A DNA stretch of 64,000 nt, taken from assembly GCA_034687125.1 (NCBI GenBank), contig JAQGBZ010000228.1:36094-100093 (forward strand), read 5' to 3'. The translations under genes were made by a program, and so were the position numbers. Within the stretch, counting starts at the first letter, position 1. Every line of letters starts with the position of its first letter. The DNA comes from Neelides folsomi (lineage: Eukaryota > Arthropoda > Collembola > Neelipleona > Neelidae). The notes below the pieces were generated by a model, which saw only the letters and a program-made list of their open reading frames with translations, did no database searches and had not been told where the DNA came from. Of the stretch, positions 22,801-63,400 are shown piece by piece.

Positions 22801-24347
22801 CGTCTCCTTCCTCTATCTCCCGGGCTTCTCCTACGGAACTTCAGTTAGTTCGGCTCAGTCACCATTTAAAAAGGGAGAATTACCCGAATAAATCAAAAAG
22901 AGTTTCATTTCCACTCTCATTCCTCACTTCCCAATTTATTCTCATTGTGGAGAGGTCGGGTCGAGAGGGGTTAAAAATGGCGTCCGCTTCCTCCCCACCT
23001 TTTATTTCCCCAATTTTTCATATCTGGGAATTTTAAATATCAAATGAACCTTTTTATGAACTTTTTTTCCCTTTGTTCTCAAAATAACTTCCCAATGTCA
23101 GGGTTGGGCCGTTGGAGAGGGCGAAGGAGAGGCATATGCTCATTTCGGCATTCTCCACTTCTCTTACTGACTTTGTAAGTCTTTGAGTGAAGGGAGAATA
23201 TGACATGGCCTGATTTGAGCCTTCTCCTATTTGTGCTCGGGATCACTCATCGACCCGCTCCTTCATCGCTCCAGACTCCTGGAACTCTAATGAGATGGTA
23301 AGTTAATGAAGCATCTAATTGATGGCTAATGAAAAATAAGCCTCGACTCCTCACTCTGCTCAACCTCTACGAATGAATGTAAAGTGTGGAGCACATTGGT
23401 TCTCCTTCAAGTCTCAACAAGGAATTCACACGTTGTCTCGAATCAACTCTCCAAATGAGACTTAAGAGTTGCTTTAAACTAACTAAAACATTTTAACTCA
23501 AAATACTACACACGCTTCAAAATTCGAAAATGCTCATTGCATTTTTTTTATGAATAAAAGTAAAATAAATATTATATTTCTTTTAATTGATCAAGAATTG
23601 AGTTACTGTGCTTTTGCTTTGAACAGTTAGAATTACATTGTTCGAACTAAATGCTGTACGTTATTACATTACGTACTCGCATATTATGAATACATTTTAA
23701 AGTTATTTCTTATATTGTTATGAACTTTATGATAATAGTTAAATGCCGAAGAGAAAACTAATTTGAATGTAAAACATTATTAAGCTCGATTTAATCATGT
23801 TGGTAAAGCCGGGAAAACCAAAGTAGCCTCAATCACTTAATGATTGGACTGAAATGCTAAGGGGAGGGCTAAAAGGAGCATTTTAATTAGTGAAGAACTT
23901 TGAAATTGAGGCAAGTTTGAGAATATTTGAAAGGGAAGGAGGAACATTATAGTTCATAAGACTTGATAAATCTTGATTAACTCAATATTAATTGCAAGGG
24001 AGTCAACACAAGAGCCATTTCCCGACGCTGGATCAATTTCTCGAAGAAGTTGAGGGGCTCAAACACTCATCCTCTCCCTTAAGAAAAGTTAGGAATCCCA
24101 AGCAGCAGTGTTCGCACTAAAGGGGAACTTTTCCCTTCATCAAACCTCTTTCAAGCCTATATGGAAGATGCCCAAATTAAACGACACTCCACGCATTTCA
24201 TAGCTACTCCCCTCCACAATTAACTTTCTTATATTATATGTATATGAATGCGGGGATTTATGGTCTTCCCACATGTCCGCTATTTTGTGGGGAATAAAAG
24301 ATTGTGGAATGAGTGTCGTAATGGACTTCCTCTTTCCTTGTCCTTCC

Positions 24348-24397: not shown

Positions 24398-26948
24398 GAG
24401 GAGAAAAGTTCATTAAAAATGAAAAGAAATCTCATTTGAAAACTCTTACCTTTCTCCTCTGTTTGAGTTGTTCTGTTTGAATTGAGTTGATTTCCAAGTT
24501 TCACTCGAGTCCTCGACCCTGTCAAGGAAAAAAATAAGTTTTACAAATTTTCATGTGGAGTGATATGTTATCCCGCATATCTGACATGTCATACATATCT
24601 GTATACTAAATACATAATGTATAGTACTACTGGTATTATTCCATTTTTATAGTAAAATTATAATTCAAGGATCTTATAATGTTATTCAAAAGGTTCAAAG
24701 GAAAGGAAAAGTGTGCAATGTTTAATAGAATTGATTTTATGAGGTTTATGCGGAGCAATAAAAAATGTGAGAGCTCCTGCGGCCCGAGTTTGAGTATGGG
24801 ATCAAGTGCAGATGCAGGAGATTTTATATCTTGGATCTATTATACATAATGTTTGTGAGTGAGTTTCCTAATAAAAAGATATGTGGGGTTGTATGAATAT
24901 GATGGAGGAAATGGAGAGTTCCCTCCGAGGATCCTTCTAACTACAAACACTCCTCGGTTCATTGGGGATTCTTTTCCAGAACAAAGTTCTTTTACCTTTC
25001 TTTTATATAAATATAATCTCCCAACCAAACCACTACACTTCTTCCTTCTTTCTATTCATGAATTCTTGGTCACGTCACGAGCCTCCTGTCAAACAATAAA
25101 AGTCTCTGTAAATTCCGAGTTCACCCCGACTCCAATTTCCACTTCAGCCTCATTCGACTCAATTCAATTGACTTCACTTCACCTCCTCGATGACGGCGAA
25201 GAATCGAGAATGAGCATTTACCAGCGGAATCATAAAAAGGCGAGCAAACAAATAATAAGGGAGAGACTCAATCAAATCAATCTGGAGATTTCTGGGAGAA
25301 AAACGAGCTCCTTTTATTTATGCTGTCAACATGTGTGAAGCTCCAGAACTTATTTATTCTTATCAAGAACTTCTCCCGCCCCAACTTGTCGGATTTATTA
25401 TGAAATGGTCCGAATTTAAAAAAATCCAATTTATTTGCTTAATAGAAAACTGACGTTGGAAACTTTGTGAGTGTGAGAATTGAAAAAAAGGCCCGAACTG
25501 TGTTTCAAGACGTTCTCAATAACTTATCTGGTGTAATGTAGGAAGGATATATAACTTATAACCTTAGACCCCTCGAGCCTTCAAATGAAGTCGAAGAGTG
25601 AGAACAACAAGAAGTTCCTACTGTTAGCTTATTTCCAACTTTGTCCAACCTCCTTTTCCTTCCTCAATTCGAATCACTAATGAAGCAACTTTTCGCTCCG
25701 CTCACGACCTCGATTCCGATCCAGGCGCTTAATCCCAAAATCCCTCTAACTCCAAATCCAAATCCTCCACCATTTGAATTTCAGACTTTGTATACTAAAC
25801 ACTGCTAACTATCCGCCCAAATTCTTCTATTTCAAGTTTCTCGACCAGGAACTTAATTTTCTCCACATTCCTCAAGCTACTCCGAATCTCCTTACTTAAA
25901 AAGAACCCAGAAAAAGAGTTTTAATTCAGCCTTCTTGAATTAGCTCAATTTTCTCGAGTAGTTTGAGTTGGAGGCTCAGCTGGGAATGACGAAGGCTTCT
26001 GATCAGGTGGAATTATTTAGGAAAAGATCTCCCTGGGATGATTCATTGCGATAGTTTGACAGTTCAGGTTTAAATTGCAAACAGAATTTTAATTGAAATC
26101 CCCTCAACTCAATTCTAATGATATGGACGGATATAAATCAAAGAAAGTTCCTCGTCCTTGAACATGTACCAAATAATACCATCGGCATTGCAATTCATAG
26201 ATGTATAACTGCATAGGCAAACCGGTGGATTTCAATTCTCCACCCCTTGTTTGGTTATGCTTTGAGTTGCGGGTAAGATTTAAGTGGAACCGAATTGGCC
26301 GAAAATATTTGTGAGAGCCGAATGAGAATTTATGAGAGATTTCCCTCTTTCTAATTTCTCCTCCATGGCAAGGAGAGTGTTATGAGTGTGTACATGTTAT
26401 GATTCCACTTGTGGGAAATGAACCCGGTTCTTAAAACCCAAGTCCCTCTCAATCCTCTTGCTATTTTTCCACGAGAGACAAAGTTTGCCTTTCCTCGACA
26501 CTTTGTAAGAGTTAAGGGATGAGCACATGCCACACAGATGTTCATTCCGTCTTCTTCTTCGTCCCTCCGACCCGTCCGGAAGGAAACAGAGCCGCTCTCT
26601 ACAACTCCGCCACTCAAAATACAACTCCCTGGAATCTTCTTTCCTCTCACACTCCTCAATATCTATTGTCCTATTTCTCCATAGATTACCGCCCATCCAT
26701 TCTATTCTCAAACAAAAGTTAAAGAAGATTTTTTCAAGAAAGTTAAAAGCACAACTTTCCTCTTTCCTTCTTTCCCAACCAACTCTGTCCCATACAAAAT
26801 TCTTTCCCAAGATAAAATTAAATACACAAATACACAATTTTCCACTTTAACATTAATCTAAATATAAGTATTCAATCCATTCAATGAACTACAAATGTGT
26901 TAAATCATTCCACGATTCCAAACTTTTATATAAATCGAAGACAACATG

Positions 26949-31526: not shown

Positions 31527-33503
31527 TTAATTAATTAATTCTTCATATTCTTCATACGCTTCATAATCATCCAGGAGGAGAGAGAAGTTGGCAGGAAATA
31601 ATTGGAGAAATGGTTTTGGCATGTGAAAAGGATATTTGTCAGGTGGTGCTCGGATTTTGTTCTCCAGCTTTTTAATTTCAGTCTCGCACTCGTTGAGTTT
31701 GTCTTCGTTTTTAAAATCAATGCCGTAGGCTCGGAGTTGATAAGCTAGGAAGTAGTAGTAGTACGTATCCGCACCAGTGATATAGTGAAACGATATGAGT
31801 GTGTCGGAGCAGCATTCAAATCCCTTTGAATCAAATTAAGCTAATTACTTTAAATAAGCATTTTAAAGTAGTAGATTTTGACATGAACCCTACGCAATTT
31901 ATTTATTCGCATTTCTCATCAATTAGAACCGTTTCTATTTTATATATAAAGATACTATTCAAACTTTCACTTCATTACTTCAATTAGTGAAATTAAAAGG
32001 ATTTTATTAAAAATGCTTCAACATAGCATATTCGTAAAAAATCTTAAACATCCATATTATTGTGTAGTATTACAAAGATAAAAAACAAATGAGATTAATT
32101 ACCATTTTGTGAGGATAATAAGAAATGTTTTGATACCAATCGTAATGAAAGCTAAAAAAAATAATCTAATGTAATACTTCATTTAAAAAAACCTTATTTA
32201 TTAAAACAAGATAAGTAAAGAAAATAATGAAACATGGGATTGATATTGCTCATTTGTAATTCAAGAAATAATCTGGTCTTTCAATTAAGAATCTAAAACG
32301 GCCAATCAAATCTCTTGAATCTTGCGATTTAATTCCAAGCTGAGTCATGCATTCGCCTGTAGATTATAAAAAATTAATACCTTATTAATCGAAATTGAGA
32401 AATAAGTTGGAGGAGAATTGGCATTACATTTATGTTATACAGATTTCAGAATAAATATTTATTATATAAAAAATATAATTTGCAAGAATGTTTTAATTTT
32501 AAAACAAACCAAATGTATGATCTTCTGAGTCTGCCCTATGTTGAAGGCATTTCTTATTTATAAAAACTTCTTTGGCAAATATTTTAAGTGCTTCTTTACT
32601 AATAACATAGCCTATAAAATTATTATATTATTATAACTATAACACAGCATTAGATTAATGTAAATATAGAAAGTCTTGCTCGTATTATAATCAACGTATG
32701 TTATCTTACAGTACACTACTTCTGCATACTGAATACTTATAGAATAAGTAAAATACTATTTACATAAATATTTTCTCTTTACCCGGTCCTCCAGCCATCC
32801 ATCCTCCGACTTTCATTCTCTGATATTTCATTCCAAAGTAAATTGGTTCGTTTGAGTTATATGAACTTAAAAAATTTCGGAGATTTTCTACAATGAGGAA
32901 ACCGTCATCGTCAATCTTTATGGACCACTCAGCATCATTCAAATGATGGCCATGAATGTATTTAAAAGCAAATTTTGTTTTGCTCCATAAATATTTTCTC
33001 CCCACAAGAGTATCATTCCCCGTTATAGTTCCTAATCTAGTTTCTAAACGAAAATGCCGTTTAATTCTTAAGTATATTATTTAATAATATATTATTTTTG
33101 TACATAAATTTTAGTTCATTTAACTATTACTATACATGGCTTAAATTACTTAATTCACCATTTTGATCACTAATTAGCACAGTTTTGTCACAATGTCGTC
33201 TCCATGTCGATCTTGAATGATATGCCTTTCGCCATTGACTATTATTAGTAGTGAGGATGTAACACAAAATTCTCACTTTTGGAAGCAAATAATTCTGTGC
33301 GTTAATAAGAATGCTATTCGTATCACCATTCTCAATGCATTGACTTCGGGAAAAGTCAGAAATATCCGGGTTATGGCTTAAAAATTAAAATTTTTAAAAT
33401 CAAGAATTTTCTTCTGTTTGTGTGTTAAATGTTTTTATTTATTTATTTAACTTACTTGTGTATAAAAACTGTAAGTGCAATTCCTATAAGAAATGAAAAT
33501 ATT
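31527..33503 (-). CDS. C1GALT1: Core-1 beta-1,3-galactosyltransferase-like (possibly defective)
   Basis: The family (glycosyltransferase family 31; C1GALT1, T-synthase) transfers galactose from UDP-Gal to GalNAc-Ser/Thr in the Golgi. Exons seen, 5' to 3' on the minus strand: 33456-33503 (hydrophobic anchor), 33159-33376, 32783-33043, 32510-32611, 32254-32356, 32103-32151 and 31527-31823. Phases agree at every junction. The family signature is clear: RILCYILT, the R-x-TW block, the metal-binding IKIDDDGF motif, EPIYFG, a GG-P-G turn, GYVISKEAL, DSRD, the aromatic FHYDWYQ block, and CCSD near the C-terminus. The C-terminal tail is long and acidic. There are two oddities. The donor after exon 32254-32356 reads AT instead of GT; read through, the frame stops at once (TGA). 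No ATG was found upstream of the anchor exon before a stop, so the 5' end is unresolved. It is a real gene or a very recent pseudogene. Confidence 0.8.
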
Positions 33504-34879
33504 CTTGGAAATAAAATAGTAAAGCGAAAAGAGCGAAGGGTTGATTACCTATATTCCTAAAACAGTATATAAATTAAATAAAATTAGTTTAAACTGATAT
33601 TCATAGTATACTAATAACTAGTAAGTATATTTAGGAATAAATCCAATATTAAAATAAATATTTTACAACAATTAATTGATAGGTAAATATTATGTATTTG
33701 AATTGTAGTAGAATATATAGTATAATGAAATATTATTTATAACAAAATAATGATGTTAATATTATTTTGACATACAGCAATTTTGCCTTGAAGACTTTAC
33801 AAGAGATTGTCATTTTAATATACTTCAGGAATATTGATATTCAAAGCGAATTAAATATTTCATGATTAATCTGTATCTCAAATGTTTATCAAAATTTATA
33901 AAATAATGTCATGATTATAAAAAGATTAACTTTAACAATTCATAGAATTAATGGTATAAATATTTAGTGTAGGTACGTACTGTGAGAGTATATTTAAATA
34001 GGTATTATTAATTTATTTTATTACAAATGTATTGAATAAGAAATTATTATAGAAACGTAGCTCCAATCTGTGTATTTATGAAATAAAACTTTCGTTGTAA
34101 ATGCTATAAATTAATAAATATAAAAATCATACAAATCATACAAATAGCAATGTACCTTTTCCTTATGTATTTTAGGTACCCTAAAAGACATTTCTAAATG
34201 AAATCAAACTTATAAATAATAATTTCTAATTATGTATTTATCTTTTGTGGTACAATAAATGATATATTATATTTTTATCGCTGACTAATATAACCTAACT
34301 ATATTATCATATTCTTTTATTAATAGTTCCACTTATTATTGATTATTGTTAAACTCGAGCCCTTATATTATAAGTGGTGTCTAATTTCGTCCATTGACTC
34401 CAAGTAGTTTGAAGTTCGAAGCTAAAGTTAACGGATTATCATTTATGAAAAAAATTAATAAGATTTTATAATAAAATCTTATTAATTTTTTTCAAATTTT
34501 TATATTTGGAAATCAAAAAAATGTGAGAGTACATAAAATATGTAGTTTCCTCGAATCGGGTCAGGTCAAATTGAGGGAGGTCGTATGTTGTTTAGTCGCA
34601 TGTCTATATTTTACTTTAAAGCCCAAATGAACAATGCAATGCATAAAGTAGAAGTAGATGTTAAAGACCATTGTATAGGACTGTATACATTTTCGTTCTA
34701 AAGTGCCATAAGAACTGTCTATAGGTACTTGTTTTGCACATTACTTTCGTAATATTACAATAAGTAAAGCCATTCAATTTAAAAACAATATTTCAAGAAG
34801 AAAGATTGCATTCAGTGCAATGAAGACATATTTGGAAATAAATGATTTACTAAAAAAATAACAAGATTATTATGAGAAG
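33504..34879. other. AT-rich intergenic region between divergent paralogs
   Basis: Very AT-rich spacer between two head-to-head galactosyltransferase-like genes. It should hold both promoters and the missing first exon of the minus-strand gene, but I could not identify either. It contains a perfect palindrome, listed separately. Confidence 0.5.
34447..34493. repeat. Perfect 23-bp inverted repeat, 1-bp centre
   Basis: GAAAAAAATTAATAAG... at 34447-34469 is the exact reverse complement of 34471-34493, with a single A at 34470. It sits in the spacer between the two divergent galactosyltransferase genes. Such a structure can extrude as a cruciform. It may be a degenerate mobile-element end. Confidence 0.7.
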
Positions 34880-36331
34880 ATGAGAAAATTATATAAACTT
34901 GCCAATCGTGTTTTCAGTTCTGTTATTGTGTTTTTCTTTTTCATCGGAATAATCTCTACAATTTTATTTTATGAAATTTCACGATTTCAATTACTAAACT
35001 TAAAAGCTTGTTATTTGACATACTCATTGTCAGCCAACAATTTGTAAGCAATATTAACAATGTAAATACATATTTAAGTAATAAAATTTATTTACATTAA
35101 CCATTTGTAAATAATTTATAAAACAATCAAGAATTCAATAATAACAACTTTGTGATATAAGAGATTTGCTGCTATTGATTTTAAAATATATTATATTAAA
35201 TAAATAATTTTTTAAAAGGCAATTGGATGCAAAAACGAAGATTGTCAAAGTTGAGAAGAGCAAAGCAAGAATTGTTTGCTGGACTTTGGCTCACACAGAA
35301 GAAACCTTAAAGCTTGCCTTTCATGGTAAGTATACTTGGGGATCTCGCTGTACTAGTTATTACATCTTCACGGCAGCATCCACAAAAGAGCTTTTCAATT
35401 ATTTTGGAGTTGTTCAAGTCAACGAAACGGATTCATGGGAAAGAACTAAATTTGCCTTGACATACCTTCAAAAAAATGAGAATTTCAACAATACTTGGTT
35501 CATTCGGCCGGGAAAGCAAAATTATCTCATTATTGAAAATCTCATGCACTTCATCGACAATTTGGAGAATTCTTCAGCTCCACATTATTACGGATTCAAC
35601 TTTTACTATGAGAAGTCACGTAGAATTCAAGTTGCACATCCGGCTGCTGGTAAATAATGATTTCAAACCTATTTCCAACATTTCCCTCTCTACTTGCCTT
35701 TTTACATTTTTCTAATTTATTATTTCAATACATCTACTTGTATTATCATTACTATATGGTAATTTAACTACCTATGCTAAAATGTATAATACATAAATAA
35801 TTGTGTATGTACTTGTATGTACAGATACATGATGATAATAATTTTAATAATATGATTTTTTTAATTTATTAAGCGATGGTCCTCAACCATGAAGCTCTCC
35901 ACAAACTTTTCAACTTGAAAACAGATTCTCAATATATTAGTTGGAATTCTTCTTATGAATTTGTGAAAGTGGGTTTGTCAACATGTCTCCAAACAGTGGG
36001 AGTTTATTTGGGAGATTCGAGAGATTCATTGAACAGGACAAGATTTGTGCCCCAACTACTAAATTTCTATTTGGATCCACTTCAAGTGAAAAATCCAAAG
36101 CATGACTTTTGGAATTGGAGTGTTTATGCTCAAGAATTGGGTTTTAATTGTTGTTCCGATCTCACAATTTCTCTTTATGTTAACTCCCACAAAGTTCTTT
36201 ACTTATTGGAGTACATGTTGTACCATTTTCACATTAAGGGCTATTCTAAAGTACTTCTAAATGAGTCCATTCAGCTCCCGATTTCCAAATTGATAAAAAA
36301 ACCCAATGGGATTAAAATTTTCTCCCGATGA
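34880..36331 (+). CDS. Core-1 galactosyltransferase-like protein lacking the DDD motif
   Basis: CDS join(34880..35043,35219..35649,35874..36331), 350 residues, with phase-consistent GT-AG junctions. The ATG at 34880 is chosen because the ATG 8 bp upstream meets a stop after two codons. The protein is a type II membrane protein: a short basic cytoplasmic end, an anchor at about residues 13-31, then a stem and a family 31 (C1GALT1-like) domain. Family blocks include ARIVCWTL, TWGSRC (94-99), SWERTKFAL, IIENL, HYYGF, DSRDSLNRTRFVP and CCSDL. The stretch that is normally WFLKADDD reads WFIRPGKQ (148-155), so all three metal-binding aspartates are gone. The usual GGAG turn reads PAAA, formed across the exon 2/3 junction. 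The reading frame is otherwise intact, so I infer a catalytically inactive paralog, perhaps with a binding or chaperone-like role, rather than random decay. It lies head-to-head with the DDD-containing copy. Confidence 0.85.
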
Positions 36332-40609: not shown

Positions 40610-41822
40610 ATGTACTTTTTATTTTATTATTTTTTGAGACTATTGTCGCGCTTTTACACAGCCCATTTGTCCATTATTTTTGATACTTTGGACTTTTTAA
40701 ACGTTCAAAAATTGGACGAGTTCCCATTTCTGTAAACTTTCACTTTACACGAAAATGCAACTATTCTTGTGGATTTTGCTTTCACACTGCAAAAACAAGC
40801 TATCTTACCCCTCTTGAAAATGCAAAGATTGGTCTATTGAAGCTCAAACATGCTGGAATGAAAAAATTGAACCTTTCAGGTTATTTCTTACAATAACAGC
40901 TAAAACAATCGTATTCTTATATTGAATAATAAATAGAGTAATAATTTACAGTTTAATATGAAGAAAATGCTATTTTAAAAATAATTACCTATTTTATTTA
41001 CAGGCGGGGAACCATTTTTACACAAAGGCAATCTTGGGGAAATTTGTAAATATGCCCATGAAGTTCTCAAGCTCGAATCTGTCTCAATTGTCTCAAATGG
41101 AAGCAAAATTACTCAAGATTTTTTCATCATTTATGGAAAATATGTTGATATTCTTGCAATTTCGGTTGATTCTTTTGATGAAGACACCAATAAATTAATT
41201 GGAAGAGGTAAACTATTTTAATATTTTTATCTTAAGAAAAACAAGGAATAAAATTAATAATTATTATTGTATGGTAAATGCTGATAAAAAGAATGTTTTG
41301 TAGGATTCGGGAATCATTTGAAGAGCTTTGAGAGAGTTGCTCGCTGGTGTGAAGAATATCAAATCATGTTCAAAATTAACAGCGTAATTAACAAATACAA
41401 TGTTGATGAAGATTTCACTCAAAACATTTCAATTCTCAATCCTTGTCGATGGAAAGTCTTCCAAGTTCTTCCAGTAGAAACTGAAAATATCGGGGATAAC
41501 GAGACTGGGCGGAATGTTGAAAGGTTTTTAATAAGTGACGAGCAATTTGAAAGATTTTGCAATAGTCACAAGCATTTGTCTTGCATGGTTCCTGAGTCAA
41601 ACCGGACGATGAAATCTTCATATCTCATTCTTTACGAGTACATGAGATTCCTCAACAAAGGAGACATATGGAGAAACCGAATCAATCCTCGACGTGAGTG
41701 TTGAAAAAGCTTTGGCTAATACAGGTTGGGAGGAAAATGTATTTTTTGAAAGAAATGGAGTTTACAATTGGACCAGAGATAGAGAAAGGTGTTCAAGCAT
41801 TTATCCTTTTAACTCATTTTAA
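40610..41822 (+). CDS. RSAD2: Viperin (RSAD2)-like radical-SAM enzyme, frame-disrupted
   Basis: Viperin is an ER/lipid-droplet radical-SAM enzyme that converts CTP to ddhCTP in antiviral defence. Conserved exons are about 40723-40879, 41004-41207 and 41304-41822. The radical-SAM cluster C-NYS-C-GF-C is at 40756-40779, preceded by [15 protein letters not shown] spans the first junction. [53 protein letters not shown] and [11 protein letters not shown] follow and match the family closely. Two frame problems are visible. Near 41662-41682 one extra base moves the C-terminal block (SILDV... to ...YNW) out of frame, so the main frame stops at 41704. At the N-terminus an ATG at 40610 opens a hydrophobic leader whose frame runs into the conserved block one base short near 40723. 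The usual C-terminal LDW was not found. It is a recent pseudogene, or the window has two base errors. Confidence 0.8.
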
Positions 41823-45244: not shown

Positions 45245-48200
45245 TCATTTATTAAGTTTAATTATGCAACCATTGTTGTCATTAAATGAAGTACTATTCT
45301 TTGATTTAATCAATTTACCTCTTCCTCTATTTGGTCCACGACCTTCTCCAAATCCATGTGGTCTTGGGGCCGACGGACCCGGAGCAGCTTCTGAGTATGG
45401 CGGCGGAGGAGCCAAAGGAGTAGCGCCGCCATTCGCCGTTGCTCCTCCAGCATTTGTACTCGCCTGACGATAGTTCCTCTACATTGTTAAATAGCTTATT
45501 AGTCCATGCAATTGGAAGTTTAGAGCTTAAGGTTTGTCTGATAGATACACGTACATGTCGACGAAGTGTGTTGATTGGCCTTCTAAGAGTGTCACCAATT
45601 CTTCGATGTGGAGCTTTCTTAGGATTGGAAGAAGGTGTGTGTACAGCACAACATTTGATGAAAAGACCCATCAAAATAATGAACCCAACACCCATGAGTA
45701 AAACGGCCCACCAATTATTCTATTTGATAAAGATTCATTTCATGAATTTAAAAGATTTAATTTAAGATTTCTGATATCAGATGAGTAAAAACAAATTGAG
45801 AACTTACCGTAACCCATTGAGCTACATTCAAGAGAGTCTCTTTATTAAAAAGAAGATTTTTAAGACGGGCTAAGGGGCCTTCGGCGTCCACAGCACGGCA
45901 TTTTAGAAAGACATCACAATAACCCTGTAAGGAAAAGTCATGAACATTAGAAAACTATAAAGAATTAATAACAAAATATTAAGATGATAAATGTATCTAA
46001 TTGTAAATTGCAAAGAGCAAATATGGAACTGAATTAATTTCGGTTTAGTATTTAATTAATATCAAAATAATAATAATTTTAACTGATGTTTAATAAATCG
46101 TGCAGCTAAATATTAAATAAATTATTTTAAATGAATTAAATTTTTTTAAAAAAGAAAAAAAGATTTCATACTTGAAAGTTGTCACATGGAGCTCCTGGTC
46201 GAAGACTTAATCCTCCAGGAAGACCATCGAGATTCAACTCTGAGGTTGATCTACACCTCCCTTGAGAATCTAAGCATGCTAATTCACAAAGCTTCCGCTT
46301 ATCAACATTCTTATCGTTGCTTGAAAGAAAGCACTCTTGGAGATTGAATTTAAGGCAAATTGATCCTTGGCACTCTCCCTTTTGACAGACCTAAAATTGA
46401 AAATAAATGAATAATTATCAAAAACTTGACAAAACTATAATCATACTCTAAGCACTTCACAAGAGATTAATATTATGTTATAATCGAAAAACTAAGATGC
46501 TTTTAATTTCTAATCAATTTTTAATGAAAATACCTGAGTTCCGTTGTTACAAGGTGAAAGTTCTGGCTTGGGAGCAGGTGATGGACATTGTGCAGTGAGT
46601 CCATTGCATTGGGAAGAATGACTACACTCTGTCTCTGATTTGCATGGGAGTCGTTTGTTCCTCAACACGAATCTACATCTTGATTCACAGCATGGACCCT
46701 CAGATGGTGAACAAAGGGCTTGGAGGCGTCTTTTACATCCTGCAGCAGATGGGTTGTTCTTTTTATCGTTTTCAGTGACTTGTCGCGGGTAACAACATTG
46801 CTCTTGACATTCTTCTTCATTGTAGCCGCAATCACATTCTTCGCCCTCTTCTACAATTTTGTTGCCGCAGAACGTTCCATTGGTGGCTAAAAAGTAAAAT
46901 TAGACATTAACGATCATCACTACTAAATGGTCGCCAGTCGCCACTCTCCCCCCAAACCGCAAATTCCCATCGACCCACTTACCAATGAAGCAATTTTGTT
47001 TCTTTGAATGAAGAAGAATTGCATCCAACACAGATGAAATGTTTTTCATGGAACATTCAGAGAATTTGGAATTGTTCGGACGATCACCACTCGTTGCAGA
47101 TGCGAACATAATGAAATTTCCATCTGATCCTCCTGGTCGACACTTGTTCGGATAATCATGCTAAAATAATATATAAAACCATTTTAAAATCTTATAAAAT
47201 TATTCTAATGTATAAAATTGTAGTTATCAAATAAGTAAGCACAAAATGAGTAAATTATACGTTGCTTAATAATGTTAAATAAACGTTAAATGAGGCGAAA
47301 TGTGGATTTTCACTCACTGTTACAAAATTTAGACACTTATTGACACTAAAGTCATGAAAAGACGCTTAAACGTGAAATTACCGGAGATCCAAAGTTGTGG
47401 CCTATTTCATGAGCAAGAGTAAGTTGGGAGACTTTTGGAGGCACGCGGCTATTATAGTTGACAAATGTGATAATTCCTGTGTTAAGACTCCGCTTTGTAG
47501 ACTGGTACACTCCACCAATGGTCTCTGTGTAGGTTTTATATTTTTCGCAAACTCCTCCGGAAGCCCCTGCAAAATGATCACATTAATTGGTTCCATTCCC
47601 ATGCAAAATCCACCTCGAGACTCATTAGCTCGAAAGAAAGTTAACACCCCGTTTTAAATATGGAGCTTAATGAAGGAGCATAAAATGAACCTGAGGCGGA
47701 GGCCACCCATGCAAGTCCCAGAGTTCCTCCTGTAAAGTCCCTGTAGGTGAAGACATAGGCCAAGCAGAAGACTTCATGGTCCGAGAGTGAATGGAGATTC
47801 AGGAAGTTGCTCACATCTATGTTCTCAATGCAAAAGAGATTCTTTTCTCCACGATAGTTCGGCTTACATGCCTTGTCGGTATCAATCTACAAGAACAAAA
47901 GGATGAATTCCAGATACCAACAACAATATTGATATAAAAAACCATTACTTTGATCCTTTGGACTTCAAAGCGTATATTCTTGTAGCTGGTCTCTTGGCCC
48001 TCGAACAGCGTGTTGGAATAGATATGGTTGACAGCTTTCACGTGCTGTGCGATGAGGGAAAGAATTTCTTCCCGGATCTTCGTCTCATCATCCGTTCGCT
48101 CCTATAGTAGAACATATATCACAATTCACTTTAGCGAATAAATAAAAGAACCGAATACCACACAATATGGAGTGGATATAATGGGAAGGGATAGTTGTTT

Positions 48201-54560: not shown

Positions 54561-57511
54561 ATGGCTCAATACAACTTTAAGAAAATCTCACCAGTCCCTA
54601 CTTCTGAGGTACTTTTCAATTGTTTGTTAACCAGTTTCGATTAATGAAAACTGGAGATGATAAATATTTAATTTGATTAAATATATAAAATACTTAAATA
54701 GTGGAGGCGGCATTTTGATTAAATTATTTAAATTGCATTAATTCTTGTTTAACATGTTTAACTAATATGTTATGCTTTTTATTAGGAATTTATCGACATT
54801 ACATTGTCGAAGACTCAGAGGAAGACTCCGACTGTTGTCCATAAACATTATAAAATCACTCGGATTCGTCACTTCTATTTGAGGAAAATTCGGTTCACGC
54901 AACAGAATTTTCATGATCGGCTGTCGATGATCATTCAAGAATTTCCAAAATTAGAGGTAAAGACGTTTTTGCAGTTGAATAATGTTATTAATCTGTTTAA
55001 TGAGTTGTATAAATTGTAATTAAACTTTCATTTAATCTATTGTAGGATGTTCACCCGTTTTACGCAGATTTGATGAATGTTTTGTACGACAAGGATCATT
55101 ACAAGCTCGCTTTAGGTCAAATCAACACATGTCGGCATTTAATTGACAAGTATGAATATTTTTATATTAATTATATAAATTTGCAAGTGGTTCGTGAATT
55201 TATTATAATTCATTCATTATTTTAGCATTTCAAAAGACTATTCCCGTCTTTTGAAATATGGAGATTCTTTGTATCGTTGCAAGCAGCTTAAGAAAGCGGC
55301 TTTGGGACGAATGGCTACTTTGATGAAACGCCAAGCATCGAGTCTTCAGTATTTGGAACAAGTTCGACAGCATTTGGCACGTCTTCCATCAATTGATCCA
55401 AATACTAGAACAATTTTGGTCTGTGGATTTCCAAATGTTGGAAAATCCTCATTCGTGAATAAAGTGAGAATAAATACAATAATGCAAATGAATGTGGATA
55501 TTATGAATTTAACAAATAATTAAGCTATTGTTAATTTTTTTAGATCACACGGGCTGATGTTGAAGTTCAACCGTATGCATTCACAACAAAGTCGCTCTAC
55601 ATTGGACATACTGATTATAAATATTTGAAGTGAGCCTTAGCTGAATTTACCTTAAATATAATGTTAACCATATTTCATTAAACTTTAATGTTAATTTAAG
55701 GTGGCAAGTTGTTGATACCCCCGGTATCTTGGATCATGCTCTTGAAGAAAGGAATACAATCGAAATGCAGGCAATCACTGCCTTAGCTCATTTGAGAGCT
55801 TGTGTTCTTTTTGTGAGCGATCCTTCAGAGCAATGCGGCCATTCAATTGAAGAACAAGTTCAACTCTTTGAGAACATCCGTCCGCTTTTTGCCAACAAGC
55901 CTTTGTTGTTTGTCTTGAACAAAACTGACATCATCAAGCTCGAAGATCTTCCTGATTATAAACAACAAGTGTTTGAAGACATAATGAAAGATCCTGAAAT
56001 CTGTGTCTTGGAAATGAGCACGATGACCGAGGAAGGAGTTATGAGTGTGAAGCATGAGGTAAGAACTCATTTCTGATTCGAAGAGTGCTTAATTTCGATC
56101 ATTTTCATATAATATTTTTATATTAGGCATGTGATCGTTTGATGGCTCATCGAATGGAACAGAAAATGAGAACCAAAAAGGTTAATGATTTCATGAATCG
56201 TCTTCACGTGGCAATTCCCAAGCCGAGGGACGATAAGGAAAGACTTCCTTTCATTCCAGGTTTGAATTAAAAGATTTTAATCTTAAAATGTCATCAAAAA
56301 TGAGTTTAATAACACGCAATTTAATTGTATTTTTTTTAAATTATAAAGAATCAGTTATAAAGAAGCAACAAATGGGAGCTGATGCCAAAAAGAACAGGAA
56401 AAGGAAACTCGAAAGAGAAATTGAACTCGAACAGGGAGACGACTACATTTTGGATTTGCAAAAGAACTACGACATGCCAGATGAATTCAAATATGATCCA
56501 ATTCCTGAAATTTGGGAAGGTCACAATATTTGTGATTACATTGATCCTGATATTTTGAAGGTAATTTAAATTATTGATTTATATAAAATAAAATATTGGT
56601 AAGTTTAGTTATTCTAAATTGAAACTATCTCATACAGAAACTCGAAGAACTTGAGAAAGAGGAAGAACTTAGAGAGAAAGCTGGATTCTATGATGAAGAT
56701 GAAGAGGATGAAACGCCAGAGTATCTTGAAATTAAGAATCTTGCTGCCCAAATTAGAGAGAAGAAAACGTTGATGAGAGTACGGAAATAACTTTTTAGAA
56801 ATTTCAAATTTTAAATTTTAAATTACGAAATATTACATAATGTTTAATTATTTTTAGATGGAGAATAGCTTGAAAAAATCAAGTACAAAGCCGACAATTC
56901 CAAGGAACACACAGGCTCGAAAGAGAGAAAGGAGCGTGTCAGGCTTGAGGACTAAGATGAGCCGACTTGGAGTTGATTTGGAAGATGATCCAAATGTAAA
57001 TTTTACAAATATTTCAATCTTTACTCTTTCATTAATTTAATTAATTGTTCCAAAGTAAGGTATTTAATTTTAATTTTATATTGTAGGCTCATTATGTTAA
57101 GGCTGTTGGGCATACAAGGAGTGTCTCGGCGAAACGTGCAAGAATGGATACATTGGGAAGATCTCAATCCAGATCTTTATCTAGACCTCCAAGAAATCAA
57201 TCTGGTGTCAAAGATCCAGCTGTAAGCTACTCTTTTATTTTAATATTTTACTATTCATTTATGAACATAATCAAAAATTGTTAATTTATATACATTATAC
57301 AATAAGATTGTTTCATTAGTTTATATCTTATTAATAATTTTTAATTTCTTTATAGATGAAGGCGAAGGTTGATAAAATGAAAGCGAAGGCACTGTTGAGA
57401 GGAATTGCCAAGTTCTCTAAAAAGGGTGAAGCCGATCGACACATCGCGTGCAAAAAACCAAAACATCTTTTCGTTGGAAAGCGCGGCATTGGAAAAACTG
57501 ATAGAAGATAA
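54561..57511 (+). CDS. GTPBP4: Nucleolar GTPase NOG1 (GTPBP4)
   Basis: Essential GTPase of nucleolar 60S ribosomal subunit assembly. CDS join(54561..54608,54786..54956,55046..55149,55226..55463,55544..55629,55701..56058,56127..56259,56349..56560,56638..56778,56858..56995,57087..57221,57356..57511), 639 residues against 634 in human; all junctions GT-AG and in phase. It starts MAQYNFKKI as in the family. The GTPase motifs are complete: G1 GFPNVGKS (175-182), G3 DTPG (221-224), G4 NKTD (289-292). The NOG1-specific blocks follow: [30 protein letters not shown], an acidic stretch, and a basic C-terminus with GEADRH, KPKHLF and GKRG. Introns are short (68-177 bp). It diverges from ADAM10 and converges on the ionotropic receptor, 116 bp past its stop. 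Nothing suggests damage. Confidence 0.97.
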
Positions 57512-57627: not shown

Positions 57628-60600
57628 TTATTCTAAATATGTGAATGGAAATTCGTATTTTTCTTTGTACCATAAAATATATGATATCATGATTTCTAAA
57701 ATAAAAATTTGAAAAGAAAAAACAATACCCACTAGCCATATAACAAAAATCCCTTCCAAATTATCTAAATTCAAAGGGGTTTTATGGCCAATAGCATTTT
57801 GAATAGCTGCTACTTTTGATTTTTTTTCGTGAAGTTCAATTTTTCTCTGAAAATAAAGGTTCGATTAATACTTAGGATCAAAGCTAACATTGAATTTAAG
57901 TACCAAAACATCATTCTGCCATTTAACAATTAATCCTCCTTGAGCTGCAATTAGGATCGCCATATTTATTCCTTGTGCTTCTGGAAGATCAGTTTGCATC
58001 AACCACCCCACAAACAATTTAAGAAATGGTTCATTAGAAATATGATAATTCATCATTTGTTTATTTTTATCTCGAATTAGTTTATTTCTATAAAACATTA
58101 TTTTGTCATCTTATCATAATACATACTTTAATATTACCCTGTTTCCCAGCTGATAATCCGCGGATTACCTAATGAATGTGAGGGTCTAGCTGCGGATTAC
58201 CAATGGGGGCGGATTATGTAATTAAAAAATGAATTTAATTTTTTAAAGATAAAAGTATTTTAAATATAGGATATTTTAAATATAAGATTTCTTAAGGTTT
58301 TCCAAGCGTTCTTTGATTGATTTTAGCATTGGTATTAAAAGTCATTTGAGGTGCGGATTATCTAATGTTCTTATTTTGGGGAAAAAAATCTGCGGATTAT
58401 CAGTGAGGGCAGAGTATAGGTGAGGGCGGAGTATCAGCGGGGAAACAGGATATTTATGTATTATTGCTTAATTAATATATTACTTACCTGACATTATTCT
58501 TATCAAAACTTGCGAGAGTATTGCGGTTGATTTGATCAAATGTTGTTCGTTTATTTGTAAATATAATTCTACCCATCTTCCTCATTTTAAATGCAGTTTT
58601 GTCGTTTGCATGTATAAAATATATTGCTTGTGTTGAACGATTGTTCAAAAAAAGCTTCTTCCCGGATACAAATAAATCTTCCAATGAATTTATGGGTGAA
58701 TCATGATCTGGAAATCTAATGTCAAAATCATTATTTTTAATATACTTAACATTACATACCATGCAGATCTTTTTTTGTCTTATTTTTAATGTTAGATAAG
58801 ATGTGGTTAATTAGATTTTAAGGATGGTGTGTATAATAAATAGTGTATTGAAAATTTTGTTTAACATATTATTAAAAATTATTTAATCTTACGATAGGAA
58901 TGCAGTGAGGTTACTTTTATAAACGTTCTGTAATATAAAGCACGAAATGAACCAGCCAGTTAAAATAAATACTAACGGTCCTTGTTGAAGATACAAGCTT
59001 GTTATAGGCTTTATAAGAACAATTCTTGCAATCTTTTTAATTTAAAATTAAAATTTTATTTAACATATGGATCATTCTGTTATCTTTGTAAAATAAAAAA
59101 AACTCCGACAATGTCGCATATTCCCTCAAACCTTAAAATCCGCGCACAGGGTTCCGTTAATATATTTCGCATCCCTATTCATTAATTTAAAAACAATTAG
59201 CTAGTTAAAAAACGGCACTAGGTAGGATCCAAAATCAAAGTTTTTTTGAATTGTTTTTTGGATATCTTTCATATCACATTCACATTTTGACCCTACGGGC
59301 TGCCGTTTTTGTGCTTTAAGAAAATCCCACGCATTTTAGACGAGTACCACGTGACCAATCACAATGTCTCATTTCACAAAGATAACAGAATGACCCATAT
59401 ACAACAATTAATAGGTATTGGTTATACCTATAGGTATTAGGTACTATAAAAGTATCATTTGTACCTATTTTTAATACATACGTACGACTTGTCGATATTA
59501 CGATATGTAAGGGTGTTGTGCTTAGAGTGGACGAGGAGCATGTCTGGACGTAATCAAATACACGCAAATCCATAGTTTTAAGCGTATCCTCCAGTCTGGA
59601 CGCTTCAATTACACACAAACACACTGTTCAAATCCAGAAATAATATTTGATGGTTTGCATGAAAATTCATAAGCTTTTGTAAAAATTGGGATTAATAATC
59701 GTTCTGGAATTCGTAATCCCATATTTTCACTTTTGTTGTTCTTCTGCCTATTTTCCTTTGAATGGAGAAAAAAATGAAACTTCCAAAGGTTGCAATTTGT
59801 GACTACAATGAGGTGGAAAGGATAAAAGATCGATATAGTTGTTTCTACAACATTTAATTACATCAATGCTGATGTGTGAAATGTGGTTGTCTAAAACAAG
59901 TAGAACACCCTTGGAAGGTGATGAATTTGAATAATTTCGGAACATTTTAATCCAATTATAAAAAACGATTGAATTGCTCCACCCGTTTTTTGTGAATTCA
60001 ATTGTAGTTCCTTTTGGAGTATTTGCATATAAAGACTTATCGGGTCGAATTTTGGGAAAAATAATTAATGGCGGCATGTATTCCCCGGTTGCACTTCCAC
60101 AACATAAAACTGTAATCAATCTTCCACGTTCACCACTAACAACTCTGAACGTATCTTCTCCCTTAATTCCAACGACTGTATTTGGTTTTAATACTGTGCT
60201 AATGCCGGTTTCGTCAATGTTGTAAAATTTTCAGCATCATAATTGTTAGATTCCATAAGCGTTTGAAGATTTGAAAAAAAATAATTAACATTTGTTCTGT
60301 TAAAACATTTAACTCGATTTAAACTAATCGCTCCAGGTTTTTTAATGCTAAATCACTGTTGCGTTTTAAAAACTTTTCAAGCCATTTTCTTCCTGCTAAT
60401 TCTTTATTATGATCAAATGGATGTTTAATTTTGTTTTTTTAGCCAATTGAAAAGCAAGTAAACGAACATCTTCACTTGTGAGTCCATAAAATCGTTTGTT
60501 GATAATTTTTATATGCTCAACTAGAATGTCTTCTTGAATTTTGTTAAATATTGGCTTTTTACCGTGAAATGCATCAACCGGTAATGCTCCAACTATTCTT

Positions 60601-63400
60601 CTTTTTAAAGATATATGTGAAACTTTGAATAATTTTGAAGCCTAACATTCAGACAAGCCGTTTTTAACAGTATCTATTGCTTGTCTGAAATTTTCCTTCT
60701 TTTGTTTTTTTAATGCTTCCATTATTGGTTAGTGTGAGTTATTATTATATTTTGCATTTAAATGGTTTTTTTACATGTGTGAAATCAACTTACATTGAGT
60801 TATTGAATGGAATATCTGTGTAAAACGACTTATTGTACTAATAGCATTTAAATGGTTTTTCACTTATGTGGACTCTTGTGTGAATTATTAAGTTTCCATT
60901 TATTAGAAAAGGCTTTACATATTTTGCATTTAAATGGTTTTTCACTTATTATACAAATTACATTTAAATCGTTTTTCCCCTTTTGTATACCCTATGTATG
61001 CAAATTAAATTTTCTATTTGAATACTCCTATAATTATATATTTTCACTTAAATGGTTTTTCACCTTGTGAGTCAACTCACAAGTTAGTATGTTTTAGGAT
61101 TTAATTAACAAGGTTTTTTTATTTTTGAGTCCGGCCAGGTAATGTGAATAGTTTATTAAGGGGAAAAGTGAGAGGTATTGTTCAGTTGTTCGTAAATATT
61201 GTATATATTCGCCCATAATATAAATATGGGCGATATGGGTATTGAAACATTTAAACAGTTATAGGATATTACAACATGATTGAAACCTATTATGTTTTGA
61301 CTCGAGTTATAACATTAAACAAAGTAATAAAAGTCAGTGTAAGTTATAAAATTAGAAAGGGTTCGAGTGGAGAAATTCCAAGAATAGCTTAATCCTTTAA
61401 AACTTCGAATTTGGTAAATTTAGTGTGTGTTAAAAGATGCGTCCACACTGGTGGATATACTTTAAACAGTGTGTTTGTGTGTAATTGAAGCGTCCAGACT
61501 GGAGGATACGCATAAAACTATGGATTTGCGTGTATTTGATACGTCCAGATATGCTCCTCGTCCACTCTAAGCGCAACACCCTTATTAATTTAATATTTAG
61601 CCCTAAATAGTAGATCCATTTAACGAGATAATCTCACCTGTCCGGTAACATAAAAAATAGTACGCTTAGGTGAATATTTATTGGTTAAAGAATAGTGAGC
61701 AATATAAAAAGTCCATAAGATCGCCCCAACAATAAAGGTTAAAATTATCCACGACGTCCAAATTTTCCATTTGAAAGGCCTTGAATTTTATATTAATTTA
61801 TAAAAAAAATTATCAATGACCATTAATCCAATAAAAAATTATGTTATATAACCTAATATAAAACATAACCACAATTAACCTATTTTATACCTATTATATT
61901 TTAATTATTAATTTAGCAATAATAGGCAATAATAACCTCACTAAAGCAAATAAATTGTTAGAAGGTTTCGACTGTAAAGACACTAATGTAAATAGTGCAT
62001 CGCATATAGGAGAGGAATATTCTCCTATTTGAATTCTTTCATGTGAAGCCAAAACACTTCCAACAATCATGTCAACTTCTTTATCGGCCAATAATTTGCT
62101 TTTTCCTATCCATTTTTCAGGAATAAATTGACCATTTAAATAAACTTCACCAGATTGAAAAAGTTCAAAAGTCATGTCATATTCTTTAACAATATATTTC
62201 ATTAGCTCTCCTTCCACTCCTATAAGGACGCCAGACTCAATTTCAACACTATTGCTTGTAAGGTTCATCTGTCTGTATTTAAAATTAAAAGGAGGATTCT
62301 TGGGCCAATCAACGAATTCAAAATATCCAAGAGACTGTAAAACCAATTGAATTACAATTACACTCATTCAATACTGCTGAAATTGTGAAAAGAGTACAGG
62401 AGGCTTATGATCAAAAACGTGATAATCAAAATACGAGATATTTCGCATGGTAATTTTTATGCACATTTTGGCGTTGCAATAATTTTGTGTGATAAATTTT
62501 GGGTGATAAAATTTGAAACGCTCTTTAGACGTTATAATTTGGCACTCAAATTACTTGTGTCAAATTTTATGGAAATAAACACTCGTGAAGGGGATTATCA
62601 GTTTTTTAGATTAGGAAAATTTAAAGGATAATTGTGCCAAAGTTCTTTTAAAAATATTTATCACAAGATTTTGTGATACGTGATAATTTTTTTAAAACAA
62701 CGTTGTCACGAGATAATTAGCTTGATAACTTATAACTTTACAATTTTGACACACATTTTAATTATCACGTTTTTGATCATAATCTTCCAGATGATTATTT
62801 TACCCTTACATTTGAATATCCAACTTTCATTTTTCTATTTGCCAAAATCAATTTGGGACTTGTCACATTTCTATTGAAATTTAATTTTAACTGCTGCGGA
62901 ATACCGTAATCGTATTGATAAGTTTTAAAATTTGAAGAGTTGATGAAAATTGTTTTTATTCTTATGTTATTTTGAACAAATTTATTTTTTATATTTTTCT
63001 CATTGGGTTCAATAACTAGAACAAATGCGATGTTTTGAAAATTTCTATCTAAAAAAGTTGCGTATTCAAATGAAAACGAAGATATGTCTTCGATTATAAT
63101 AACGCTACAAGGTGAATAGAGGAATTTCGTACTTGCTAATTTTTTACCAAACACCATTAGTGGATGAATATTATCAATAAATATATTGTGTAAAAATAAG
63201 CGAATGCTTCCTGCTTTTTCATTACTTGGTCCACTTTCTTTTAAATGAATAAAATCGCAATACCTTCCTTCATTCAATAAATTTTCTACTACAATATTAC
63301 CAATCATATTTTGAAATGATTCATTTGATTCTGATTTGATAAATGGGGTCGAGTAAACAGGTGAAAAAATATTAAATAAAATAAAATTGATAATATTCAT
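57628..63400 (-). CDS. Ionotropic receptor (IR family, iGluR-related channel)
   Basis: Ligand-gated cation channel of the protostome chemosensory IR family. CDS complement(join(57628..57846,57889..58087,58488..58715,58893..59032,61638..61779,61937..62334,62810..63400)), 638 residues, all junctions in phase. Layout: signal peptide (MNIINFILFNIF...), a weakly conserved N-terminal part to about 197, ligand-binding lobe S1 (SGVLIGVEGEL, the ASHERIQIGEYSSPI block), then FALVRPFKWKIW leading into TM1 (about 337-357). The pore/TM2 exon ends YKSNLTAFLS, the family signature. Lobe S2 follows (SPINSLEDL, FVGWLMQTDLP, AQGGLIVKW), then TM3 (about 598-620) after PLNLDNLEG. The frame is undamaged although the TM1-pore intron has been inflated to 2.6 kb by transposons. 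The last intron is only 42 bp. The ligand is unknown; the glutamate-binding residues of true iGluRs are not evident. Which IR subfamily it belongs to cannot be told here. Confidence 0.92.
58138..58449. mobile_element. MITE with GCGGATTA subterminal repeats
   Basis: A 312-bp element inside an intron of the ionotropic receptor. The ends are inverted repeats of about 24 bp starting CCTGTTTCCC and continuing GCTGATA-TCCGC, with two mismatches. The octamer GCGGATTA occurs at 58160, 58192, 58209, 58353 and 58392, plus an inverted copy at 58154-58161, as in subterminal transposase-binding arrays. There is no coding capacity. Removing it leaves an 88-bp intron. Confidence 0.7.
59068..59397. mobile_element. 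TA-flanked palindromic MITE
   Basis: A 330-bp element in the TM1-pore intron of the ionotropic receptor. The ends are inverted repeats (TGG-TCATTCTGTTATCTTTGT then -AAAT) of about 26 bp with two mismatches, flanked by TA at 59066-59067 and 59398-59399. A second inner inverted pair (AAAAACGGCA near 59208 and 59300) makes the centre foldable. It is non-coding. A separate larger transposon lies 110 bp away. Confidence 0.65.
59748..60722 (-). pseudogene. Broken pogo/Tigger-like transposase
   Basis: The reading starts at an ATG at 60722 with a pipsqueak-type helix-turn-helix (MEALKKQKKENFRQAIDTV). It continues through a TAG near 60643, a frameshift near 60421 (before the HNKELAGRKW DNA-binding block), and a second frameshift near 60235 just before the first catalytic block NIDETG. 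Next come LITVLCCGSATG, then LLVLDNHISH, the second catalytic aspartate, and PPHCSHKLQPLEV. In that last motif pogo-type enzymes usually have LQPLDV, so the third acidic residue is E rather than D. The frame stops at 59748, short of a normal C-terminus. It is a domesticated or dead copy; the stops and frameshifts favour dead. Confidence 0.8.
60754..61063 (-). pseudogene. Relic C2H2 zinc-finger array inside transposon
   Basis: Five copies of the finger-linker coding motif (GAAAAACCATTTAA, i.e. EKPFK) occur at 60754, 60844, 60926, 60961 and 61045 on the minus strand. Three of the four spacings are 82-90 bp, close to the 84 bp of one finger. One whole finger survives at 60866-60943 with C-X2-C-X12-H-X3-H spacing (C-KI-C ... 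H-KSP-H). The others are broken by indels and stops. It lies between the transposase start and the right terminal repeat, so it was captured by, or was once part of, the transposon. Confidence 0.7.
62408..62779. mobile_element. TA-flanked MITE in IR intron 1
   Basis: Inverted ends TGATCAAAAACGTGATAAT occur at 62408-62426 and inverted at 62761-62779, an exact match that continues with one mismatch into AAAAT. TA flanks both ends (62406-62407 and 62780-62781). The interior is rich in GTGATAA and TTGTGATA words and has no coding frame of note. It fills most of the 475-bp first intron of the ionotropic receptor. Confidence 0.75.

Follow-up and report, generated by a model that had tools for sequence, protein, structure and literature searches.

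C1GALT1 builds the core of mucin sugars. A gene of this type, lacking the metal-binding DDD and yet keeping an open frame, lies at 34880-36331 (+) in a 64,000-nucleotide stretch of Neelides folsomi contig JAQGBZ010000228.1 (the window, whose numbering is used below). This DDD-less paralog raises the question of whether it is a pseudoenzyme held under constraint or a gene that has recently fallen silent. Our model of it comprises three exons with in-frame joins, 350 open codons followed by TGA, and two GT-AG introns, the first in phase 2 and the second in phase 1; the broken frame or splice sites that mark a pseudogene were thus not found. Exon 1 (34880-35043, donor GTAAGC) encodes a short tail and the signal anchor, a type II segment at residues 11-31 (34910-34972) where the Kyte-Doolittle maximum reaches 2.42 over 21 residues. 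Exon 2 (35219-35649, acceptor TTTTTTAAAAG, donor GTAAAT) covers the stem and the first half of the GT-A domain, and exon 3 (35874-36331) covers the second half and ends in the TGA. Mononucleotide shuffling left exon 2 open in 1 of 3000 trials and exon 3 in 0 of 3000, and the open frame is beyond chance. A four-codon frame, ATG-AGA-AGA-TGA (ATGAGAAGATGA, 34872-34883, +), lies upstream and overlaps the start at 34880.

When PDB chains were searched with phmmer, the sole match at E ≤ 1 was Drosophila C1GalT1 (7q4i; E=4.4e-33, 118 bits, query residues 68-321). Pfam-A returned no match at E ≤ 1, so the family call relies on the PDB match and the paralogs. By its catalytic-domain homology, its type II anchor and its CCSD block, described as characteristic of T-synthases and their relatives (PMC11005171, PMC9865085), the predicted protein is a C1GALT1-type GT31 member by descent, and the original prediction of a full-length, spliceable family 31 protein with an anchor held. 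The seven N-glycosylation sequons, against 3.5 expected from shuffling (P=0.047), are too weak an excess for use.

We placed the gene in its family by searching the assembly (75.1 Mb, 840 contigs), where 39 matches to the cuticle domain Chitin_bind_4, and a COX1 that translates under the invertebrate mitochondrial code, mark an arthropod genome. Searches with the DDD-less paralog and with its neighbour in the window (31527-33279, -) retrieved the same six C1GALT1-type genes among the matches listed, and the neighbour query added a weak match, C45. Gene models were built by spliced alignment with the Drosophila C1GalT1 stretch as query; C45 (score 136 versus 298-1028 for the other six loci) and the Fringe-profile matches on C132 were left out of the family alignment. 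Over the core, identity to Drosophila is 75% for C111, the canonical C1GALT1, located elsewhere in the genome, 60% for C90, 55% for C113 (DVD in place of DDD), 41% for C172 (DDD), 39% for the neighbour (IDDD, in pieces) and 29% for the DDD-less paralog. The DVD of C113 (C113:22000-31000, contig 26066-26329) keeps the metal positions and changes the middle Asp, a ribose contact in Drosophila. In C111, C90 and C113, the GGAG loop is interrupted by a phase-1 intron, and the DDD-less paralog carries an intron in the same column and phase; three other core introns common to the same three genes are absent from it. Since the GGAG-loop intron is shared in column and phase, we infer that the DDD-less paralog is a DNA-level duplicate, not a fully processed copy. 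No branch of the tree is well supported, so the gene cannot be placed among its paralogs. With exon 2 as query, 12 pattern matches in viral contigs and 49 in prokaryote genome contigs were obtained, none of which was confirmed as a relative.

In the structure paper on Drosophila C1GalT1 (PMC9065035), four GT-A landmarks are defined and the contact residues for UDP, Mn and the glycopeptide are listed. All four landmarks, which an active C1GALT1 would be expected to show, are lost from the DDD-less paralog. In phmmer and column alignments, the metal-binding DDD (Drosophila 181-183) is replaced by GKQ (residues 153-155; 35511-35519, +); PGK, named in the original prediction, sits one residue upstream. 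The glycine-rich GGAG loop is replaced by PAAA, split by the phase-1 intron (35640-35875, +), as had been predicted. The losses of DDD and GGAG thus stood, but the list was incomplete, those of the xED base and of the C-terminal His having gone unmentioned. At the site of the expected AEDVEIG, which contains the catalytic base D255, the gene encodes SYEFVKVG (35951-35974, +); the counterpart of D255 is K with MAFFT and F with phmmer, the base being lost in either alignment. SLYV (36170-36181, +) replaces SFHY, with H324 changed to Y, so that the metal-binding C-terminal His and Y325 are gone. The metal site has turned basic (RPGKQ; K179R, D182K), and the UDP contacts E150, G151, R152, L155, H324 and Y325, together with D255, are all changed. 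Judged from its sequence, the protein would be unable to bind or use Mn/UDP-Gal.

Other conserved elements are in place. The alignment shows the TWGxRC block (residues 94-99; 35334-35351, +), the GDSRD block (36011-36025, +), the CCSD block (36149-36160, +) and the helix with Y332, Y336 and Y339 (36194-36226, +), Y336 being the dimer-interface tyrosine named in PMC9065035. C103, C127, W123, W156 and W176 are kept as well. The non-catalytic positions C246 and C208 are lost, the former probably a disulfide partner.

We then compared retention between the active site and the rest of the conserved core. From PMC9065035 we took 21 active-site positions (150-152, 155, 158, 181-183, 213, 218, 220-224, 254, 255, 300, 304, 324 and 325), with 221-224 standing for the glycine loop by our own choice; the reference columns were those invariant in Drosophila C1GalT1, C111 and C90, 20 in the active site and 118 elsewhere. 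The DDD-less paralog keeps 1/20 active-site versus 56/118 other invariant columns (Fisher p=1.7e-4), and the result was similar with C113 added to the reference (1/17 versus 45/87, p=3.5e-4) or with both C113 and C172 (1/16 versus 28/46, p=1.2e-4). A second alignment, which included Cosmc, yielded 1/20 versus 56/118, 1/17 versus 45/87 and 1/16 versus 28/47 (p=1.7e-4 to 3.5e-4). When alignment doubt was allowed for by counting 2, 3 or 4 of the 20 positions as kept, p was 0.0013, 0.007 and 0.028, respectively. Among circular shifts of the site set with at least 8 usable columns, 0 of 234 gave a kept fraction as low. The neighbour, by the same test, keeps 15/20 versus 60/118 (p=0.054). The human Cosmc row of the alignments and the tree is a putative sequence; it keeps 4/20 versus 48/118 (p=0.087), a weaker skew, and with the larger reference sets 4/17 versus 41/87 (p=0.11) and 4/16 versus 29/47 (p=0.019). 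As this known dead paralog skews less, the test lacks a strong positive control. In the aligned sequences, loss in the DDD-less paralog is concentrated in the active site, where almost every published contact to UDP and to the acceptor is gone, and non-catalytic conserved positions are preferentially retained.

The neighbour had been described as a DDD-bearing copy placed head-to-head with the DDD-less paralog. An IDDD-bearing, C1GALT1-like gene does lie on the minus strand, in pieces at 33279-33159, 33043-32783, 32611-32510, 32356-32250, 32151-32103 and 31823-31527, with its N-terminal exons outside the model; these pieces keep DDD, ED and the C-terminal His. However, it is no close twin: the two genes are 24% identical and therefore do not look like the products of a recent head-to-head duplication. 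Moreover, the frame of the neighbour meets an in-frame TGA (32250-32252, -) after RPDYFLNYK, at the expected intron donor. The stretch of homology that follows is preceded by an acceptor at 32151, and joining it would take a donor in phase 2; upstream of the TGA, the exon that starts at 32356 offers a single GT, at 32299, and this one would cut in phase 1. The TGA could be accounted for by a donor of non-canonical type, by an error in the assembly or by damage to the gene. The first of these is not far-fetched, since non-canonical donors are described as common in one copepod (PMC5714493). Because the frame meets the TGA where a donor is expected, the DDD-bearing neighbour may be the damaged copy.

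Several unrelated features were recognized in the window and beyond. A viperin-like radical SAM gene lies in pieces at 40684-41704 (+); the stretch 41288-41704 matches PDB RSAD2 (E=9.5e-43), and two pieces had no Pfam match at 0.01. The window also contains a Disintegrin domain (46510-46899, -), a NOG1 GTPase exon (55645-56076, +), a DDE_1 transposase fragment (59748-60230, -; E=3.1e-21) and a ligand-gated glutamate-receptor domain below the Pfam cut-off (61894-62367, -). Elsewhere in the assembly, two long open frames of 560 and 553 aa (C468:37385-38233 and 23073-23864) carry phytoene synthase-like domains (PF00494), reminiscent of the transferred carotenoid genes in mites and aphids.

To what extent the DDD-less paralog has evolved under constraint was approached in several ways. 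In a neutral simulation with substitutions only and mutation weights of our own choosing, none of 300 copies of the C111 core was stop-free when brought to 30% identity, and ∼32 unconstrained replacements left a 5% chance of a stop-free frame. Compared with C111, C90, C113 and C172, the gene has pS values of 0.71-0.76 and pN values of 0.49-0.54. Synonymous sites are saturated, so the paralogs yield no dN/dS ratio; pN below pS nonetheless argues against full neutrality, which over the same time would be expected to bring pN near pS. A search of the genome for a close copy or second haplotype gave 9 matches, 100% identical at the locus alone and 25-37% for the rest, so that neither polymorphism nor dN/dS from a close pair was available within the genome. 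In the exons, GC at the three codon positions is 0.38, 0.32 and 0.36, versus 0.15 and 0.21 for the introns, and GC1 (0.376) is below the 0.44-0.52 of four paralogs. The branch of the gene is very long, at 3.2 changes per column in the seven-row tree, where the median is 0.66, and at 3.85 in the eight-row tree, to which putative Cosmc (itself 3.55) was added. By codon usage, the true frame scores only weakly above the wrong ones, exon 3 falls below one minus-strand frame with 9 stops, and three non-coding controls scored negative in all 9 frames. The intact frame, pN below saturated pS and the concentration of loss in the active site agree with the original proposal of a pseudoenzyme under some constraint.

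We consider it probable, by a modest measure, that the DDD-less paralog is a constrained pseudoenzyme, whatever its role. Part of the same evidence can be read as the record of a divergent paralog that was long constrained and silenced so recently that its frame is still unbroken. Its long branch, lowered GC1 and weak codon bias all fit such a history, as do the possible damage to the neighbour and the four-codon frame ATGAGAAGATGA over the start. Recent silencing is thus a live explanation, since the branch is long, GC1 low and the codon-usage score weak, but we judge it unlikely: there is no stop and no frameshift, both introns are GT-AG, and the ∼32 free replacements of the simulation already make an intact frame improbable. 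Furthermore, many replacements are required for the active-site loss by itself, and uniform decay would have hit the remaining conserved positions as well.

Two further readings would make the gene either a working enzyme or an old relative of a known chaperone. The basic metal site (RPGKQ; K179R, D182K) suggests a transferase that is active without metal, with basic residues standing in for Mn as in GT14, or one that uses another donor, and activity without DxD has been published for GT14 and prokaryotic GT6 (PMC7185993). Yet all of the UDP contacts listed above and D255 are changed, and D255A abolishes the activity of Drosophila C1GalT1 (PMC9065035), which makes this reading very improbable. 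To common descent with vertebrate Cosmc, as its invertebrate ortholog, we give slightly less credence again. DDD is absent from both the DDD-less paralog and putative human Cosmc, their branches are alike in length, and an AU test did not reject their clade (p=0.37); a clade with the neighbour gave p=0.52, both values coming from long branches and a single putative Cosmc row. Against common descent, the two are 20% identical, each being nearer to C111 (30% for the DDD-less paralog, 32% for putative Cosmc), they alone share only 5 states, and putative Cosmc aligns with ED at 254-255 while the DDD-less paralog does not, although PMC7185993 states that xED is lost in Cosmc. In addition, according to PMC9865085 and PMC11005171, invertebrates have no reported Cosmc homolog. 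The gene probably arose separately from Cosmc.

Comparison with known systems helps to define what a constrained pseudoenzyme of this kind would resemble. With C1GALT1/T-synthase (GT31; Drosophila C1GalT1, 7q4i), the gene shares catalytic-domain homology, CCSD, GDSRD, TWGxRC, an N-terminal anchor and an intron in the same place and phase as in canonical C111, but it has neither DxD, glycine loop, xED base nor C-terminal His and keeps 1/20 active-site residues. The original prediction likened it to the split between C1GALT1 and Cosmc, and its alignment with C1GALT1 and putative Cosmc, suggested there as a check, confirmed the missing acidic triad. Cosmc (C1GALT1C1), a chaperone of vertebrate C1GALT1, is itself without DxD (PMC5493369, PMC7185993). 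The DDD-less paralog likewise combines C1GALT1 homology with the absence of DxD, keeps CCSD and has a branch comparable to that of the putative Cosmc sequence. In contrast to Cosmc, it is an arthropod gene, is 20% identical and keeps a GDSRD absent from putative Cosmc. The Cg1_T-synthase of Crassostrea gigas is another invertebrate C1GALT1 homolog and showed no core-1 activity in the assay described in PMC11005171; unlike the DDD-less paralog, it has conserved motifs, among which that source lists DDD and EDV. Among the matches listed in a literature search (titles and abstract starts), none concerned a DDD-less invertebrate C1GALT1 paralog; such paralogs may be in print.

We propose that the DDD-less paralog is an old, fast-evolving C1GALT1 (GT31) paralog that would have lost catalysis and kept a folded lumenal scaffold. 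The protein would be made and anchored in the secretory pathway without using Mn/UDP-Gal, and we conjecture that the dead copy, with its kept C-terminal blocks, pairs with a live family member. Published work describes C1GalT1 as an obligate dimer, and the interface residue Y336 is kept in the DDD-less paralog; the likeliest action of the latter would therefore be that of a non-catalytic partner that, like vertebrate Cosmc, aids the folding, stability or localization of a catalytic member. The authors of the structure propose that Cosmc helps to form the dimer interface (PMC9065035). That the partner or client is C1GALT1 specifically is a tentative suggestion. More doubtful still is the narrower version, in which a C1GALT1 duplicate became, independently of vertebrates, a Cosmc-like private chaperone or regulatory subunit serving one of several C1GALT1-type enzymes. 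If the DDD-less paralog is indeed constrained, it would add a second example of a dead C1GALT1 copy maintained alongside live ones, and with it one could examine whether such splits are driven by dimer pairing.
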